Origin: an uncultured Bacteroidota bacterium
GTDB taxonomy: Bacteria > Bacteroidota > Bacteroidia > Bacteroidales > UBA12077
Assembly: GCA_913055635.1 (NCBI GenBank)
Contig: CAJXLK010000010.1
Coordinates: 1-64,000 of the forward strand
Reading direction: 5' to 3'
Length of the DNA stretch: 64,000 nucleotides
This document shows, in pieces, positions 43,920 through 56,370 of this stretch (position 1 is its first letter; each line of letters starts with the position of its first letter). A program made the translations under genes and the position numbers. Below the pieces are notes generated by a model, which searched no databases, was not told the DNA's origin, and saw nothing but the letters and a program-made list of their open reading frames with translations.

Positions 43920-46259
43920 TCAGTTATTGGAAGAAGAGCCGTTGCCGCTGTATTTGAAGCCCAGCACCATGATGTCGTCGATTTGCCCCCATGAATCCAT
44001 CCAGTTGTTGAGGGTTTGTTCCAGGTTGTGCTTTTGCTTTTTCATGTTCTGGTGGTCATTATTGAGCAGTGTTTCTTTAAATTTCCGCTTACCGAATTTG
44101 GTACCCTGTTCGCCCCCGAATTGATCGGTAAAGCCGTCGGTGAAAAAGTAAAGCTGGTCATTGGGATGAAGTGGTTGTTCCTGAACGGTGAAGGGGGTTT
44201 CCTGATATACTGAATGCACGCCGATGGGCATGCGGTTGGCTTTCAAATCGATGAGCTCATTGTTGCGAATGATGTACATGGGGTTATAAGCCCCGCTGAA
44301 ATAGAGCAGATGGCTCCGGGTATCAATAATGGCCAGGGCCATATCCATCCCGTCGCGCGAGCCCCGTTTTTTAACACTCTGATGAAGGGCATCAATCAGG
44401 TTCCGCCTGAGCTGGTTCAGGATTTCGCCGGGATCCAGCACCTTGTTTTGATTGATGATTTCATTGAGAAAGGCCACCCCGAGCATGCTCATAAAGGCTC
44501 CGGGCACACCATGACCGGTGCAGTCGGCCGCGACAATGATCACCTTCGAGTCGATCTGGTTGATCCAGTAAAAATCGCCACTAACAATGTTTTTGGGCTG
44601 ATAAAAAATGAAATAATCGGGGAAGATTTTGCGAATGGTTTTTTCCTGGGGAAGCACCGCGCTTTGTATTCGGCTGGCATATTCGATGCTTTCGGTGATG
44701 ATCCGGTTTTGCCGGGCTATTTTATCGCGTTGTCGGGTGGCTGTATTTCTCTGGGCCTCGATTTCATCGCGTTGGTTTTCTATTTCCTGTTTTTGCCGGG
44801 CCAGTTTCTGGTTGGCCCGGACCTTGCCTTTGTAGCTTTTGTAAATCACGATCAGCAGGGCCAAAACCAGCACAAAACCGATTATAAAGGAATAGGTCAG
44901 GATGCGTTGCCTTTTCAGGCGGGCCTGCTGTATGGCTTCCTGCTTTTTCTGTTTGTACCGGAGGGCTTCCTGTTTTTGTTCAAATTCATATTGCATCTCC
45001 AGTTCTGATATGCGTTGGTTGTTCAGGCTGTCTTTCAGGGCAGCGTAGGTGGTATAATACGCAAGGGCCTTTTGGTGGTTATTGGATTGCCGGTAGGTTT
45101 GATACAGGTCGTGGTATATTTCCTTAATCTGTTCCCGTTGGTTTTGCTTGCGTGCCCGGGCAAGGGCCTGGCGGAAATAGTTGCGGGCCTGGCTGTGGTG
45201 GTCTCTTTGCATGTAGTTTTCTCCGATATGGCGGAGTATAGAGGGTATCTCAATCCGGTCGCCCATTTCCCTTTTCATGGAAAGCGAACGCTGAAGGTAA
45301 TCGAGGCTTTTTTGATAATCCTGCTGGTTAAGGTGGATCCGTCCCATGGTAAAGTAAGTGTTGGCAATGCCATAGCGGTTGCCGGTTTTCTTGTTGCGCT
45401 CAAGCACCCGCCTGGAGTATTCAAGGGCTTTATCGGGCTGGCCCGATTGGGAATAGATCAGGCTGTATTCTTTCAGGCACAGGGTGACTCCGGTCTCCAC
45501 CCCTTCATCCCGGGCAATCTGTTGATAAATATTCAGGGCCCGGTCCAGGTATTCCAGGGCCTTGTCGTAGGCTTCATTGAGCTTAAAAAGCCTTGAGATG
45601 TTCAGGGCCGTCCAGGCCTTACCTTCCGGGTAGGAGGTTTCTTCATAGATCGAGAGGGCCTTCAGATGAAACTGAATGGCATCATTGTATTTGCCGAAGG
45701 TACGGTAGATGCTTCCGATATTGGTCAGGCTCCGGGCCACTTCCTTTTGGTTTTCAATTTTTCTGTTGATTTCCAGGGCTTTCTGATAATGTTCCAGTGC
45801 CTGGTTGAAATCGCCCTGGAGCTGGTAGGTGTTGCCGATGCGGTTCAAAGTCAGCGCCAGGGTCATCTGTTCATTGGTTTCGCGCGATAGTTGACGGGCC
45901 TTTTTCAAATACCGCATGGCCGAATCATAATGGTTGAGGTTGTAGTGGGCGTAGCCCAGATGATAGTAGCTTTCGGCCGTTCTGGGTTTAAAATCGCCCG
46001 AGCGACTGAGCCGAAGGGCTTCTTTGGCGTGGTTAATCGCTGTACGGGTGTCCCGGGCTGTTTCATATTTGGCCTTTTCCAGCAGCTGTTCAATTTTTTC
46101 CAGCGAATCCTGCCGGCGCCCCGACAGGCTGTCGGAGGCTGTCTCTTCGGCATGAAGATTGACCGGAGTCACCGGGAGCAGGAATATCAAACACAGGACC
46201 AATGCAAGGCGGGATGAACAGAAAGACAAAAGAATGGCAAATGGATTGGTTCGGACCAT
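43920..46259 (-). CDS. TPR sensor with SpoIIE-type PP2C phosphatase
   Basis: A 779-residue protein (ATG 46259; ATG 46292 also possible). Signal peptide (about 1-37), a TPR array (about 50-400, e.g. AESYYHLGYAHYNLNHYDSA, ARSLTNIGSIYRTFGKYNDA), a membrane helix (about 470-490), a coiled coil (495-545), and a cytoplasmic SpoIIE phosphatase with metal-binding SGDFYW, ADCTGHGVPGAFMSM, RDGMDMA, TDGFTDQFGG and DDIMVLGF. It should dephosphorylate a serine/threonine-phosphorylated partner in response to something sensed by the TPRs. A similar phosphatase gene lies upstream, on the same strand. Confidence 0.92.
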   Translation of the reverse strand: MVRTNPFAILLSFCSSRLALVLCLIFLLPVTPVNLHAEETASDSLSGRRQDSLEKIEQLLEKAKYETARDTRTAINHAKEALRLSRSGDFKPRTAESYYHLGYAHYNLNHYDSAMRYLKKARQLSRETNEQMTLALTLNRIGNTYQLQGDFNQALEHYQKALEINRKIENQKEVARSLTNIGSIYRTFGKYNDAIQFHLKALSIYEETSYPEGKAWTALNISRLFKLNEAYDKALEYLDRALNIYQQIARDEGVETGVTLCLKEYSLIYSQSGQPDKALEYSRRVLERNKKTGNRYGIANTYFTMGRIHLNQQDYQKSLDYLQRSLSMKREMGDRIEIPSILRHIGENYMQRDHHSQARNYFRQALARARKQNQREQIKEIYHDLYQTYRQSNNHQKALAYYTTYAALKDSLNNQRISELEMQYEFEQKQEALRYKQKKQEAIQQARLKRQRILTYSFIIGFVLVLALLIVIYKSYKGKVRANQKLARQKQEIENQRDEIEAQRNTATRQRDKIARQNRIITESIEYASRIQSAVLPQEKTIRKIFPDYFIFYQPKNIVSGDFYWINQIDSKVIIVAADCTGHGVPGAFMSMLGVAFLNEIINQNKVLDPGEILNQLRRNLIDALHQSVKKRGSRDGMDMALAIIDTRSHLLYFSGAYNPMYIIRNNELIDLKANRMPIGVHSVYQETPFTVQEQPLHPNDQLYFFTDGFTDQFGGEQGTKFGKRKFKETLLNNDHQNMKKQKHNLEQTLNNWMDSWGQIDDIMVLGFKYSGNGSSSNN

Positions 46260-46311
46260 AGGGCGGATTTGTTGGGTACAATACGGTATCATCAAAATGC
46301 TGGAGCAACCC

Positions 46312-46409: not shown

Positions 46410-47915
46410 TTATACCTGGAATCCCAATACCGTGATGTCATCAATTTGCTGGTATTTATCGCTCAGCCACTCCTGCATGGTTTGTTCCAGGATTTGCTTC
46501 TGCTTCTGCATGGGCTTTTGGTGGTGTTCCAGGAGCATGCGTTTAAAGGGAACCAGTTTGAATTTTTTGCCTTTGGGTCCGCCAAACTGATCGATGTAGC
46601 CATCTGTGTAGAGATAGAAACGGTCTCCTTCGTTGTATGTGGTTTCCAGAATGGAAAACGGATGCATCTTATAATGAAAAGAGATGGGCATGCGGTCGCC
46701 CTTGAACTCGTATATCCTGGGCTCCTGTTCGTGTTGATGGTTGGGGATGTAGCACAGTGAATTGTTTGCTCCGGCGTATTTGAGCATCCCTTTTCCCGTG
46801 TCGATCTGAACGATGGCCATGTCCATCCCGTCACGCGTTTCATACAGGGTGCCTTTCTGGTGGAGCGCCCCGATGATGGCATCTCTCAGGCGGTTGAGGA
46901 TCTGATCGGGTTCGGTGATGCCTTCCTTGTTGACAATCTCATTGAGAAAGCTGGAGCCGAGCATAGTCATGAAAGCCCCTGGCACCCCATGACCGGTACA
47001 GTCGGCCACGGTCATCACCAGTTTGCTGCCGGTCCATGCGGCCCAGTAAAAATCACCACTGACATGTTCACGGGGTTTGAACATCACAAAATGATCGCGC
47101 ACATGAGGCGCCACCACCTCTTCATGGTTGATCAGGGCTACCTGGATCTTCTGGGCGTACAACAAGCTGTCCGTCAAGTCTTTGTGGACATCCTCCAGGG
47201 AGTTGACCTGGTTTTCTATTTGATGGCTCTTTTTGGTGAGCTCCGCATTTTTATGTTGGATCTGTTCATGGGCGTTTTTTAGGTCATCATAGGCATCGCT
47301 GAGCTTCTGGCTGGTGACGAAGTAATCGCCCATGAAATTGGTGATCCACACGTTAAAGGTGCTTAAGATGAGCAAAAAGATGGAGGTATACAGGCCTACC
47401 ATCACAAATTCACCCTGGGCCCAATAGAGGAGGGCATTAAGGATCAGGGCCAGTATGCCGCTGTATATAACCGTGCTTTTGCTAATTTTTAAAAGGCTCA
47501 GGCTGTTCACAAAAACGATCAGAAAAGAGATGATCAGGGTGAACTCCAGTTTGGTCAGAAGGATCTGTGGTTCTTCGACCATGACCACCGGCAGGGCGAT
47601 CAAAAAAACGATCATCAGATCAATGGTGGAGGTGGCGTATTTGATCCAGGAACGATACTTGCCCGATTTAATGGCCAGATGAAGCCCCACCATAAAAGGC
47701 AGCAACACCACAAACCCGATTAAGGCACGATAATGGCTCAGGGAAGCCACCAGCTGAATTTGCTTAAAAAAAATGGCCAACACATCCAACAGGGCCAGGA
47801 GCAATACAATTAAAAAGCGGAATTCATTGATGATGAATTCTACCTGCCGTTCTTTACTGAGAGAAGCAGATCTTGGGAAAGCATTCCGGGATATGTTTTG
47901 CAGGGATGCGTTCAT
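46410..47915 (-). CDS. Polytopic membrane SpoIIE-type PP2C phosphatase
   Basis: A 501-residue protein with six or so N-terminal membrane helices (about 33-205), a coiled coil (about 208-260) and a C-terminal SpoIIE phosphatase (265-501) with SGDFYW, ADCTGHGVPGAFMTM, RDGMDMA, TDGYIDQFGG and DDITVLGF. All metal-binding aspartates are present. Its catalytic half is clearly paralogous to the neighbouring phosphatase, while the sensory halves differ. It probably acts in a partner-switching or stress circuit with RsbW-like kinases. It ends 118-151 bases before the next phosphatase gene. Confidence 0.93.
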   Translation of the reverse strand: MNASLQNISRNAFPRSASLSKERQVEFIINEFRFLIVLLLALLDVLAIFFKQIQLVASLSHYRALIGFVVLLPFMVGLHLAIKSGKYRSWIKYATSTIDLMIVFLIALPVVMVEEPQILLTKLEFTLIISFLIVFVNSLSLLKISKSTVIYSGILALILNALLYWAQGEFVMVGLYTSIFLLILSTFNVWITNFMGDYFVTSQKLSDAYDDLKNAHEQIQHKNAELTKKSHQIENQVNSLEDVHKDLTDSLLYAQKIQVALINHEEVVAPHVRDHFVMFKPREHVSGDFYWAAWTGSKLVMTVADCTGHGVPGAFMTMLGSSFLNEIVNKEGITEPDQILNRLRDAIIGALHQKGTLYETRDGMDMAIVQIDTGKGMLKYAGANNSLCYIPNHQHEQEPRIYEFKGDRMPISFHYKMHPFSILETTYNEGDRFYLYTDGYIDQFGGPKGKKFKLVPFKRMLLEHHQKPMQKQKQILEQTMQEWLSDKYQQIDDITVLGFQV

Positions 47916-50865: not shown

Positions 50866-51732
50866 TTACAACCATTTTTTCCGCTTGATCAGAAACGTCA
50901 TCCACAATGCGACAATCAACATCAGGGCCCATACTGCCGGATAGCCATAAACCCAATTCAATTCGGGCATGTATTTGAAATTCATGCCGTAGATTCCAAC
51001 AATAAAAGTCAGGGGGATGAACAGGGTGGCCACAATGGTGAGGGTTTTCATAACCCGGTTCATGTTGTTGTTCATGTTGGCCATGTTCATCTCCAGCAGG
51101 GTCGTTTGTAGCTCTTTGGAGGTAACCAGGGATTCACTGATGTGCTGGGTGTGGTCGTAAACATCCCGGAAATAATTGCGGATCTGCTTATCCTGGAACC
51201 GGATTTCCAGGTTTTGGATGCAGCTAACCGCCTGGCTGGTGGCGGTGATATATTTGCGCAGATAAACGATGTGCTTTTTAATGGTGTGGATGGTTGTGAT
51301 GTGGTTGTCTTCAGGATGATCGATTAAAAGGTCTTCGGTGGATTCTATCTCATCGCTGATACGGTCCATGACGGAGAAATATTGATCGATGATATAATCG
51401 ATCAGGATGTAGAACAGGTATTCCATGTTTTTTTGCCGGACCCGGCCCCCCGATTGGCTTAATCTTTGTTTGATGCGGATCAGCATATCTTTGGGGCCTT
51501 CCTGAAACGTCAACAGGTGGGTTGGGGAGAGGATCAGACTGATCTGCATGAGTTGAAGGGTGTCGTTTGGGTGTTCGTATGTCGGAAATTTCAGGGTGAA
51601 AAAGAGCGACTGCTCAATGGGTTCACATTTGGGCAGGTGGTCGGTATTGATGATGTCTTCCAGGATGAGGGGGTGAATGTTGAAATATTGACCCACCTCC
51701 TGTATGGTGGAAGTATCTTGCAGACCCATCAC
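50866..51732 (-). CDS. corA: CorA family magnesium transporter, 5' end probably disrupted
   Basis: The 288-codon frame covers most of a CorA channel: cytoplasmic alpha/beta domain, long helix, and two C-terminal membrane helices with the GMN selectivity motif (GIYGMNFKYMPEL). CorA proteins are usually 310-360 residues. The same frame stays open for 54 more codons upstream (51733-51894), encoding a typical CorA N-terminus (AGTTPGEL ... NQWIDVMGLQD), but this part has no ATG/GTG/TTG and is closed by TAA at 51895-51897. A TTG in the next frame (51905) leads into AAAATTAAAAGG, so a one-base loss in the A-run or a -1 shift would join the parts. It carries Mg2+ or Co2+/Ni2+. Confidence 0.85.
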   Translation of the reverse strand: MMGLQDTSTIQEVGQYFNIHPLILEDIINTDHLPKCEPIEQSLFFTLKFPTYEHPNDTLQLMQISLILSPTHLLTFQEGPKDMLIRIKQRLSQSGGRVRQKNMEYLFYILIDYIIDQYFSVMDRISDEIESTEDLLIDHPEDNHITTIHTIKKHIVYLRKYITATSQAVSCIQNLEIRFQDKQIRNYFRDVYDHTQHISESLVTSKELQTTLLEMNMANMNNNMNRVMKTLTIVATLFIPLTFIVGIYGMNFKYMPELNWVYGYPAVWALMLIVALWMTFLIKRKKWL

Positions 51733-51985
51733 ATCAATCCATTGGTTTATTCCGGTTGGTTCAGCCGGCAGGCCCAGGGGCAGAGAAATCTGGTTGTGTT
51801 CAAAGAAGTCCTTGCTGTATCGGAGGTGTTCGATGGTGGCAGGAAAGATTTCCCGCGCCGGAGGCTCCAGCTCGCCGGGCGTTGTGCCGGCCTTTTAATT
51901 TTCAAAGCCTCTTTTTACCGCTGGACAAATTTGGATTTGGCAGGCCCGGGTCAATTGCTATATTTGTTTTTAAATTGATTGATCT

Positions 51986-53338
51986 ATGACGGGTTGGATA
52001 TTTTATGGGCTGGCCGGATTGTTTTTTCTTCTCAGCCAGTATGCCGCCATTGAGTCGTGGCGTGAGCGGGAAGGCCGTGCTGCCCGGCGTTTTTTTGTAG
52101 CGGGTATGCATTTGCCTTTGCCATTTGTGGTTTTGGGTCTGCTGGATGTTTCCGGTGCCTGGGCGCTGGGAATATTAGGTGTCCTGGTTCTGGTGGCTGG
52201 TGATATGTTTTTCCCCCGTCGGGGTGGCACCATCGGCGAGGGCATTGTTCCGCGGGGCCGGATTGACGAGCGCGACACCATGTTTTCGAGGGTGGATCTG
52301 GTGGCGGGCACACGGCCTTACCAAGCCTATTATCACCGGCACCCCGGCCGCAAGAAGGGAGATGACCGTCTGAGGGCCAATCCGGGTCTGCTCTCATCGG
52401 CCGCTTCCTTTTATGACCCCCATATCTTTCCTGCTGCCCGGGCCAATTTTGAATTGATTGAATACAACCGGGCGTATGTCGATGGAGAAGTGGCTGAGCA
52501 GCAGCTATCGGTTGACCCTTGTTTTTTGGCACGATACCTGAAGCAGCTGGCCCGCAAATACGGGGCCGTCAGTGTTGGCATCACCCGCCTGCAGGATTAC
52601 CACCTATACAGCTACCGGGGGCGCCGCCATCATTACGGCGAACCCGTCGACAATGACCATGGCTATGCATTGGCCCTGACCGTGGAAATGGATCATGATT
52701 ACGTACGCAATGCCCCCTATGCCCTTTCTGTGCTGGAATCGTCCCGGCAGTATATTCGTTCCGGGCTGCTGGCCTTGTGGCTGGCCCGGATTATTAGAGA
52801 TATGGGCTATGCTGCCCGGGCCCACATCGATGGCGAATATGAGGTGGTTTGCCCGCTGGTGGCCCGCGATGCAGGTCTGGGCGAAATCGGACGGATGGGT
52901 TTGCTGATGACCCCTGAATTGGGACCGAGGGTGCGCATCGCGGTGGTAACCACCTCGGCGCCCCTGCAAGTGGATGATCGGCAGGAGCGTTATTCCATGA
53001 TCGATTTTTGCCTGAAGTGCCGCAAATGTGCCGATGTGTGCCCTTCCCGTGCCATCCCGTTTGGCGGGCGCGAAAACATTGACGGGGTGTGGCGCTGGCA
53101 AATTGACCAGCAGGCCTGTTTCACCTACTGGACCCGCACGGGAACGGATTGCGCCCGTTGCATGAGCGTATGCCCCTTCTCCCATCCCAATACCCCCCTC
53201 CACAATCTGGTGCGCCAGGGCATCAACCATTCAGGGCTTTTTAGAACATTTGCCGCCCGGATGGATGATTTTGCCTATGGCCGCAAACCCAAACCCCTGA
53301 CACGGACAGAGGTGATGCGGGCTGAAGGGTTGGATTGA
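51986..53338 (+). CDS. Membrane-anchored reductive dehalogenase-like Fe-S protein
   Basis: A 450-residue protein with three N-terminal hydrophobic segments (about 1-22, 40-55, 58-75) resembling an RdhB-type anchor, joined to a catalytic part like RdhA/QueG. Two 4Fe-4S motifs: C342-x2-C345-x2-C348-x3-C352 (CLKCRKCADVCP) and C378-x10-C389-x2-C392-x3-C396 (CARCMSVCPF). The block VSVGITRLQDYHLYSYRGR suits the corrinoid-binding fold. No Tat signal is present, so the catalytic part is probably not exported by Tat. Putative reductive dehalogenases with N-terminal membrane helices are known from genome mining; activity and substrate here are inference. QueG itself is soluble and shorter. Confidence 0.78.
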   Translation: MTGWIFYGLAGLFFLLSQYAAIESWREREGRAARRFFVAGMHLPLPFVVLGLLDVSGAWALGILGVLVLVAGDMFFPRRGGTIGEGIVPRGRIDERDTMFSRVDLVAGTRPYQAYYHRHPGRKKGDDRLRANPGLLSSAASFYDPHIFPAARANFELIEYNRAYVDGEVAEQQLSVDPCFLARYLKQLARKYGAVSVGITRLQDYHLYSYRGRRHHYGEPVDNDHGYALALTVEMDHDYVRNAPYALSVLESSRQYIRSGLLALWLARIIRDMGYAARAHIDGEYEVVCPLVARDAGLGEIGRMGLLMTPELGPRVRIAVVTTSAPLQVDDRQERYSMIDFCLKCRKCADVCPSRAIPFGGRENIDGVWRWQIDQQACFTYWTRTGTDCARCMSVCPFSHPNTPLHNLVRQGINHSGLFRTFAARMDDFAYGRKPKPLTRTEVMRAEGLD

Positions 53339-53592: not shown

Positions 53593-56370
53593 TTAATGGG
53601 CCTCCAGCCAGTTGTTGCCCGTGCCGGTTTCCACGGTAAGGGGCACATCCAGTTGATGGGCATTTTCCATCTTTTCTGTCACCATCCCCCGCAAATCCTC
53701 CAATTCGGGCCGGTAAACGTCGAATATCAGTTCGTCGTGGACCTGGAGTATCAGTTTGCTCTGCAGCAGCTTTTCCTGCAGCACCCGGTGAATGTTGAGC
53801 ATGGCAATCTTGATGATATCGGCCGCCGAACCCTGTATGGGTGCATTGATGGCATTGCGCTCGGCCATCCCCCGCATCGTTGCATTGCGTGAATTGATGT
53901 TTTCGAGGAACCTTTTTCGGCCATAGATGGTTTCTACATACCCCTTTTCACGGGCCTTTTCAATGCACTGGTCCATGTATTGTTTGACCTGCGGGAAGTT
54001 TTTAAAATAGGCGTCGATCAACTCCTTGGCTTCTTTGCGCGTGATGTTCAGCCGTTGTGATAAGCCATAGGCCGAGATGCCATATATGATGCCAAAATTG
54101 GCGGTTTTGGCTTTGCGGCGCTGGTCTTTCGAGACCGCCTCCATGCTGTCGAGGTGGAATATCTTGGCCGCCGTGGAGCTGTGAATGTCCAGGTTGCTGC
54201 GAAAAGCCTCAATCAGGTTTTTGTCGCCACTCATGTGGGCCATGATCCGCAACTCGATCTGGGAATAATCGGCCGCCAGAAGAATATGGTCCTGGTCGCT
54301 GGGCACGAAAGCCTTCCGGATTTTGCGCCCCCGCTCTTCCCGTATAGGTATGTTCTGAAGGTTGGGGTTGTATGAGCTGAGCCGGCCGGTGGCTGCAATG
54401 GCCTGGTTGAAAGAGGTGTGTATTTTGCCCGTCTGCGGATGGATCAATGCCGGCAGGGCTTCCACATAGGTGGACAACAACTTGCGCACGGAACGGAATT
54501 CAAGCACTTTCTCTATGATCGGATGCTTGTCGCTGAGCTGCTGCAGGGTTTCTTCACTGGTGGAATACTGTTTGGTGCGTGTCTTTTTGGGGTTGTCCAC
54601 AATTTTCATCCGTTCGAACAAAACCTGTCCCAGCTGTTTGGGGGAATCAATGTTGAAAGTGACCCCGGCCATCTCATGCACCTGTTTTTCAATTTCTCCC
54701 AGCTCCTGGCGAAGTTCCCCGGCATAATGCTTCAGCTCCTGTTCATTGATCTTAACCCCGTTCAATTCCATGCGCATCAGCACATAGATCAGGGGCATCT
54801 CCATGCGGCTGGCCAGGTTCCAAAGGTGATGATTCTTAAGCTCTTTCTCAAGGATGTTTTTGAGTTGCCAGGTCAGATCGGCGTCTTCACAAGCATACGG
54901 GGTAACCTTTTCGACCGGTACTGAGCGCATGCTGCTTTGGCCTTTGCCCTTCTTGCCAATTAGCTCTTCGATGCCAATGGGCGTATAGTTCAGATATTGT
55001 TCGCTGAGCACCGTCAAATTGTGCCTTTGCTCGGGCTGCAACAGGTAATGGGCAATCATCGTATCGAAAATCGCTCCTTTTACCTGAATGCCATACCGAT
55101 GCAAAACCAGCATGTCGTACTTGATGTTTTGGCCCACTTTCCGGATCCCTTCATCTTCGAAGACCCCTTTAATCTGCTGAATAATCCGGCCGGTGGCATT
55201 GGAATCCTCCACACACGGCAGATAAAAGGCCTGGTCGTTCCGGTAAGCGATGGATATACCTACCAGTTCAGCCTGCTGGGGATTAACCGAGGTGGTTTCC
55301 GTATCAAAACAAAAGGCCGGGGCTTTCTGGAGCTTTTCTACCAGTTCCGCCCTTTTTTCACGGGTGTCGATGAGCTGATAATCCTTGTCGGTGGTGTCAA
55401 TGCTTGCTTTTTTGGTTGCTCCGGCCGGTTGCTGATTGCTGGCGGATTCTTCAAACATGGATTGCTGAACCCCTTCTGAGCTGGTCGTTTCGCTGAGGTC
55501 TTTGTTGAAGAGGCGTTTGGACAGCGTTTTGAATTCCAGTTCCTGGAAAAGCTGCATCAACATTGCTTCATCGGGCTGCTGGCGTTCAATATTTGAAGTA
55601 TTTATTTCAGTGGGAACATTTAGTTTTATTTTAACCAGCTCTTTACTTAAATATATTTGATCTTTATAATTAATTAAATTTTCTTTTTGTTTTCCCTTTA
55701 AGTCATCTATATTGTTATATAAATTTTCCACCGAACCATATTGCCCGATGAGTTTTTTGGCGGTTTTTTCACCAATGCCCGGGGCCCCGGGTATGTTATC
55801 CGATTTATCGCCCCACAGGGCCATGATGTCGATGATTTGATCGGGATGTTCGATGCCGAATTGTTCACATATGCTTTCCCGGTCAATGACTTCGGCCTGG
55901 TTGCCGGAGCGCTTGGGTTTGTAGAGGTAGATGCCTTTCTCCAGCAATTGCCCGTAATCCTTGTCGGGGGTCATCATGTAGGTCTCAAAGCCTTTTTCTT
56001 TGGCTTGATGGGCAATGGTCCCGATGACATCATCGGCTTCATAGCCTTCCACCTGGATCATCGGGATGTTGAAAGCCTTCAGGATGTCTTTGATCCAGGG
56101 GATCGACTGCTGGATGTCTTCAGGCATCTTCTCCCGGTTGGCTTTGTATTCGGGGTAAAGGTCATTGCGGAACGTAGCCTCCGAGGGATCAAAAGCAACG
56201 GCAATGTGGGAAGGATTTTCTTTTTCAAGGACTTCCACCAGCGTATTGGTAAATCCCAGGATGGCCGAGGTGTTTAAACCTTTGGAATTGCGCACGGGAT
56301 TTTTGATAAAGGCATAATAAGCCCGGTAAATCAGGGCATAAGCATCCAGCAGGAATAATTTCTTTGCCAT
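53593..56370 (-). CDS. polA: DNA polymerase I
   Basis: A 925-residue three-domain polymerase: 5'-3' exonuclease (1-290; FLLDAYALIYRAYYAF, GDKSDNIPGAPGIGEKTAKKL), 3'-5' exonuclease (about 335-520; CFDTETTSVNP with D and E retained, so proofreading is plausible), and the polymerase domain (530-925) with motif A AADYSQIELRIMAHMS, motif B RRKAKTANFGIIYG and motif C LQVHDELIFDV. It fills gaps and removes RNA primers. It is monocistronic, convergent with the dehalogenase-like gene. Confidence 0.98.
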   Translation of the reverse strand: MAKKLFLLDAYALIYRAYYAFIKNPVRNSKGLNTSAILGFTNTLVEVLEKENPSHIAVAFDPSEATFRNDLYPEYKANREKMPEDIQQSIPWIKDILKAFNIPMIQVEGYEADDVIGTIAHQAKEKGFETYMMTPDKDYGQLLEKGIYLYKPKRSGNQAEVIDRESICEQFGIEHPDQIIDIMALWGDKSDNIPGAPGIGEKTAKKLIGQYGSVENLYNNIDDLKGKQKENLINYKDQIYLSKELVKIKLNVPTEINTSNIERQQPDEAMLMQLFQELEFKTLSKRLFNKDLSETTSSEGVQQSMFEESASNQQPAGATKKASIDTTDKDYQLIDTREKRAELVEKLQKAPAFCFDTETTSVNPQQAELVGISIAYRNDQAFYLPCVEDSNATGRIIQQIKGVFEDEGIRKVGQNIKYDMLVLHRYGIQVKGAIFDTMIAHYLLQPEQRHNLTVLSEQYLNYTPIGIEELIGKKGKGQSSMRSVPVEKVTPYACEDADLTWQLKNILEKELKNHHLWNLASRMEMPLIYVLMRMELNGVKINEQELKHYAGELRQELGEIEKQVHEMAGVTFNIDSPKQLGQVLFERMKIVDNPKKTRTKQYSTSEETLQQLSDKHPIIEKVLEFRSVRKLLSTYVEALPALIHPQTGKIHTSFNQAIAATGRLSSYNPNLQNIPIREERGRKIRKAFVPSDQDHILLAADYSQIELRIMAHMSGDKNLIEAFRSNLDIHSSTAAKIFHLDSMEAVSKDQRRKAKTANFGIIYGISAYGLSQRLNITRKEAKELIDAYFKNFPQVKQYMDQCIEKAREKGYVETIYGRKRFLENINSRNATMRGMAERNAINAPIQGSAADIIKIAMLNIHRVLQEKLLQSKLILQVHDELIFDVYRPELEDLRGMVTEKMENAHQLDVPLTVETGTGNNWLEAH

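Follow-up and report, generated by a model that had tools for sequence, protein, structure and literature searches.

Hybrid putative reductive dehalogenases (RDases) with N-terminal transmembrane helices were collected by Atashgahi 2019, many of them from Marinilabiliales and other Bacteroidetes, and the class has also been credited to Jochum 2018 (PMC6797604). Their function was still given as putative in the 2023 PceA2B2 paper and likewise in an Aarhus Bay paper. TMHMM placed about half of the published hybrids inside and half outside (PMC6797604), and the question was raised of how hybrids with an "exoplasmic" C-terminus are exported without Tat. In the PceA2B2 complex of Desulfitobacterium hafniense, the menaquinone head lies near K489, H495, R499 and D515 of DhPceA, while the PceB glutamates E61 and E63 lie between helices 2 and 3 at the outer face (PMC10624902).

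The window analysed here, a stretch of 64,000 nucleotides, contains at 51986-53338 (+) an intact ORF with an ATG start that encodes a 450-aa protein, in which three N-terminal transmembrane helices are fused to an RDase catalytic domain (Table 1). The AlphaFold2 model, built from a 49-row alignment (pLDDT 92.3, pTM 0.90), places the helices at residues 2-26, 30-52 (kinked) and 57-75 and the catalytic domain from about residue 85. Two Fe-S motifs follow, FeS1 as C342-x2-C-x2-C-x3-CP (CXXCXXCXXXCP, C342-P353) and FeS2 as C389-x2-C-x3-CP (CXXCXXXCP, C389-P397). The protein carries no twin-arginine motif, a Pfam search returned no TAT_signal match, and the N-terminus had no Pfam match above cut-off. 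The neighbouring genes, a CorA-type gene upstream (50866-51732, -) and polA downstream (53593-56370, -), are both on the opposite strand, and the hybrid gene stands alone at its locus without an adjoining rdhB. The flanks of about 80 loci revealed no recurrent gene partner and local synteny only; a MATE transporter was seen near 5 of 20 loci of anchorless homologues. Elsewhere in the window, inspection by eye identified two adjacent genes (43920-46295 and 46410-47915, both -) whose C-terminal halves resemble SpoIIE-type phosphatases; one of them has TPR repeats and the other membrane helices. The pattern TTTGN{19,21}TANNTTTG, which we take to be the Bacteroidetes promoter consensus, was matched five times in the window versus 0.92 expected. 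With one such match, TTTG-N19-TATATTTG, ending 19 bases before its ATG, the hybrid gene looks like a single-gene transcript and probably has its own promoter.

Table 1. Features of the hybrid RDase gene in the window, with related loci elsewhere
Feature	Position	Strand	Basis or remarks
Bacteroidetes-type promoter-like element TTTG-N19-TATATTTG	51936..51966	+	pattern match
Whole gene: hybrid (anchor-fused) RDase, 450 aa	51986..53338	+	ORF, profile, structure and relatives searches
Transmembrane helix 1, about residues 2-25; in register with RdhB helix 2	51989..52060	+	AlphaFold2 helices; weak profile alignment to RdhB
E-x-E motif (E27, E29), positively charged helix 1-2 loop, predicted cytoplasmic	52064..52072	+	family rows, charge bias
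Transmembrane helix 2, about residues 30-52; in register with RdhB helix 3	52073..52141	+	AlphaFold2; weak profile alignment
Transmembrane helix 3, about residues 57-75, then positive charges	52154..52210	+	AlphaFold2, charge bias
IDERDTMF signature (residues 93-100), catalytic-domain start; common to anchorless sister proteins, whose N-terminus is here	52262..52285	+	alignment
Predicted catalytic Tyr256, aligned with SmPceA Y246	52751..52753	+	alignment, 49/49; Y246 role PMC10624902
Arg317, aligned with SmPceA R305 and NpRdhA K488	52934..52936	+	alignment, 48/49 R, 1 K; R305 role PMC10624902
FeS1 motif CLKCRKCADVCP, residues 342-353	53009..53044	+	sequence, alignment
C378 and FeS2 motif CARCMSVCP (residues 389-397)	53117..53176	+	sequence, alignment
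C-terminal helices with putative menaquinol pocket: H400, H406, R410, D427, Y431	53183..53278	+	alignment to 8q4h_A; PMC10624902 residues; 48/48 hybrids
Anchorless homologues	L038, L039, L041-L047, L049, L051-L056, L058-L061		Clostridia including Romboutsia, Terrisporobacter; Propionigenium maris
Canonical organohalide-respiration cluster	L099:7301-12000 (G000:C1, about 109-114 kb)		similar in L091, L092

The NCBIfam reductive dehalogenase profile TIGR02486 matched the protein with an E-value of 2.5e-42 (145.9 bits), a score below the cut-off of 160.35 that we took as the mark of a divergent class, that is, of a distant RDase and not a classical respiratory RdhA. A sequence search of the PDB returned NpRdhA, a protein of 700 aa whose N-terminal part is duplicated and which ends in a reductase module, at 6e-41, followed by SmPceA (5e-35), DhPceA (3e-26) and QueG (8e-6). 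Given the E-values for TIGR02486, NpRdhA and the PceA proteins, together with 65 relatives found in named genomes, the family match is, by sequence comparison, far beyond chance. Fold comparison of the model gave the same order, with Z 37.9 for NpRdhA, 36.5 for DhPceA (8q4h_A; rmsd 2.6 over 350 residues, model residues 85-450) and about 33 for SmPceA, compared to about 15 for QueG and about 7 for the human B12 chaperone MMACHC. In the alignment of 49 relatives the eight cluster cysteines and Y256 are invariant (49/49 for Y256), and R317 is Arg in 48 rows and Lys in one, so that the Tyr/Arg pair has Arg at the Lys/Arg position, as do SmPceA (R305) and DhPceA (R396). Identity with QueG was rejected on the profile score (E 1.7e-9, 37.2 bits against a cut-off of 200, far under the RDase score), on the fold and on the tree, where QueG forms a separate clade. 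The sequence-only reading, an RdhB-like anchor fused to an RdhA-like domain with two Fe-S motifs, no Tat signal and no local rdh partner, was thus borne out by the three helices with their conserved E-x-E, the RDase fold, the motifs and the ORF map; the profile search it had proposed did not give QueG as the best match, the structural comparison sided with the RDases, and the catalytic residues it had asked about are in place. Taken together, sequence and model make a reductive dehalogenase chemistry a likely prediction.

The sequence-only reading had also suggested a new type of corrinoid-dependent enzyme, and this part did not hold, as the class is already published (PMC6797604). The protein is a further member of that class, to which it belongs with near certainty, because it shares the architecture of the published hybrids without difference: three N-terminal helices, E-x-E in the first loop, no Tat signal, no rdhB and two Fe-S motifs. 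The published hybrids mostly measure 440-490 aa, a range that includes this protein, and are common in Bacteroidetes (Marinilabiliales) and other groups. A hybrid is present in 18 of the 25 genomes of the GTDB family and in about 21 of the 198 genomes sampled from the order (19 long matches, 2 partial); in the same sample an RdhB like the one encoded by this genome was found in three, plus one doubtful case. At the same locus of a genus relative (G004, L004:299-1639, L070; 68% identity) the hybrid gene contains one in-frame TAG, and that of another genome of the order (G148) contains two TAA; either these genes are pseudogenes or the stops are errors of the assembly. Hybrid RDases are common in anaerobic Bacteroidota, yet our literature search found no reported activity, substrate or assay for any of them.

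The sequence-only reading had noted the absence of rdh and cobalamin genes nearby, which is correct for the window but not for the genome. About 111 kb into contig G000:C1 a canonical cluster encodes a Tat-type RdhA (494 aa) and a 103-aa E-x-E RdhB, along with an FMN-bind/4Fe-4S membrane protein (RdhC/RnfG/NosR-like) and a divergent MarR regulator. This RdhB had no match to solved structures and no Pfam match above cut-off. In the limited stretches examined of related clusters in G004 and G011, both contained the regulator and RdhB and one the start of an RdhC-like gene. Two cobalamin riboswitches were found beside BtuF/BtuC/BtuD-like and BtuB-like (TonB-B12-like) genes, which makes corrinoid import likely. 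As CobS was not detected in this genome, import or salvage of the corrinoid was assumed, not de novo synthesis. A methyltransferase corrinoid protein (MtgC/MtaC-like) and an MttB-like methyltransferase adjoin the import genes (L108:87-2568), representing another corrinoid-dependent system. A Marinifilaceae RDase induced by 2,6-dibromophenol, described in an ISME 2026 paper, was rejected as evidence for hybrids, as its gene comes with a Tat signal and rdhB.

Among hybrids with a full or nearly full N-terminus, Lys and Arg cluster in the helix 1-2 loop and just behind helix 3 in every case examined (34/34 and 54/54, overlapping sets). Because this excess marks cytoplasmic segments, the catalytic domain should be cytoplasmic, which we consider very likely. 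In contrast to the mixed inside and outside predictions of the published list, the family alignment thus points to inside only; such a uniform inner-face topology, if true, would remove the question of export without Tat. Within the helix 1-2 loop, E27 is present in 55 of 55 rows and E29 in 52 of 55. The RdhBs encoded beside Tat-RdhA in this genome and two relatives have their E-x-E laid out as in PceB, between helices 2 and 3, whereas in the hybrids it lies between helices 1 and 2, at the predicted inner face. A profile alignment set helix 1-loop-helix 2 of the hybrids on helix 2-loop-helix 3 of RdhB, weakly (probability 48%, E 1.8e-4 for one comparison), and since this agrees with the charge bias, the E-x-E hairpin appears to have been relocated to the inner face along with the catalytic domain.

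In the alignment to 8q4h_A (with a chain numbering offset of 48 that held for each of the eight residues checked), the DhPceA menaquinone residues K489, H495, R499 and D515 correspond to H400, H406, R410 and D427 of the hybrid, position 400 being His and not Lys as in DhPceA. These four residues and Y431, which may correspond to DhPceA Y520 with a shift of one residue, are invariant in 48 of 48 hybrids. They can be compared with an anchorless clade of 20 proteins from Clostridia, Propionigenium maris and one deltaproteobacterial bin, which start at IDERDTMF and possess neither helices nor a leader; lacking a leader, they are presumably cytoplasmic. The literature search found no description of this clade as RDases. 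In the tree, the hybrids and the anchorless proteins are each split off by a supported branch (96/90 and 96/99), and the Tat type is separate from both; the node that joins hybrids and anchorless proteins carries a support of 92/70 with a long-branch warning. Across 19 anchorless proteins, position 400 is Gln in all, position 406 is His in none, position 410 is mixed and Asp is found at position 427 in two, with Y431 kept in 10. Judging from the alignment, exported RDases do not strictly conserve the pocket either: in the Tat-type RdhA encoded by this genome the His is retained, but the two remaining pocket positions are occupied by Lys and Gln. The joint occurrence of anchor and pocket residues supports a quinol as electron donor.

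The best explanation, to which we assign a probability of roughly 55%, is a corrinoid-dependent, anchor-fused RDase that would work at the inner face of the cytoplasmic membrane as an inside-out menaquinol:organohalide oxidoreductase. Together with the final helices of the catalytic domain, the anchor would make up a quinol pocket resembling the one in PceA2B2 but situated on the cytoplasmic side, from which electrons would pass through two [4Fe-4S] clusters to a base-off corrinoid, which in turn would reduce a natural organohalide to the dehalogenated product and halide. Because quinol oxidation and substrate reduction would take place on the same side of the membrane, the step should be electroneutral, and the enzyme could act as an electron sink, a detoxification step or a terminal reductase drawing on the quinone pool. 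More tentatively, and with the odds somewhat against it, the whole hybrid class may consist of such inside-out oxidoreductases, with the RdhB hairpin shifted by one helix, the E-x-E loop and quinone pocket cytoplasmic and Tat export not needed; joint loss of anchor and pocket would then have given rise to the cytosolic sisters of Clostridia and Fusobacteria, or the reverse.

An alternative explanation is that the RDase faces the cytoplasm and receives its electrons from a soluble donor such as ferredoxin or flavodoxin, the helices serving as an anchor only. In this genome (99% complete) MenD was not detected and MenB and MqnC gave only weak matches below cut-off, which is why we hold the quinol step itself at even odds. 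Some use of quinone, possibly obtained by salvage, is hinted at only by NqrB and by a MenA-like prenyltransferase that scored below cut-off. RnfD (Rnf) is present, the sister clade manages without anchor or pocket residues, and a fermentative lifestyle was proposed for some relatives (PMC6797604). However, a soluble donor leaves unexplained why the five pocket residues and E-x-E are invariant, and in anchored forms only, if the quinone site is unused. We regard a soluble donor as unlikely, though it is the foremost competitor of the inside-out quinol-fed enzyme. The same observations bear on the earlier suggestion that the protein is non-respiratory. That suggestion carries little weight, given that a canonical rdh cluster and genes for corrinoid import lie at other loci of the genome and that the hybrids all keep the menaquinone-pocket residues, but with no convincing match for the quinone genes looked for, the protein may still be non-respiratory.

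Less probable again is a corrinoid enzyme with the RDase fold that carries out epoxyqueuosine-reductase-like or another reduction instead of dehalogenation. No RDase substrate is known in the hybrid class, QueG has the same fold at its lower Z, and D282, invariant in the alignment, replaces an Asn found in NpRdhA and in SmPceA (N272, next to the active site). Against this, sequence, fold and tree all place the protein much nearer to RDases than to QueG, the Tyr/Arg pair is retained, and the genome encodes its own, separate QueG-type gene (L003). The classical topology, in which the catalytic domain would lie on the outer side, as in the TMHMM predictions for about half of the published hybrids, is very improbable in view of the cytoplasmic charge bias in 54 of 54 hybrids, the missing Tat signal that a cofactor-loaded domain would need, and the leaderless anchorless sister clade.

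Compared to PceA2B2 of D. hafniense (8q4h; PMC10624902), the inside-out enzyme proposed here shares the catalytic fold, the Tyr/Arg pair, the cluster ligands, the aligned menaquinone-pocket residues and the E-x-E loop, but consists of one chain instead of two, has E-x-E between helices 1 and 2 instead of 2 and 3, is predicted on the opposite face and lacks Tat. NpRdhA (4ras, 6zxx), a catabolic cytoplasmic enzyme, is the best fold match and likewise has no Tat and a Tyr with a basic residue, but this residue is Lys where the hybrid has Arg, and there is no membrane anchor. QueG (5d08, 5d6s) shares the corrinoid/two [4Fe-4S] fold at a distance. The anchorless homologues, sister to the hybrids in the tree at 34-47% identity, have IDERDTMF in common with them but no transmembrane helices, and have mostly lost the pocket positions. 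They offer soluble versions for assay, one of them in P. maris, strains of which, from burrows of bromophenol-producing animals, reductively debrominate according to a statement in PMC6315191 citing Watson 2000; the anchorless RDase L058 of P. maris DSM 9537 is a candidate for the debrominating enzyme. Through the comparison with these systems, two questions posed in the literature, those of topology and of electron source, become testable at the level of single residues.
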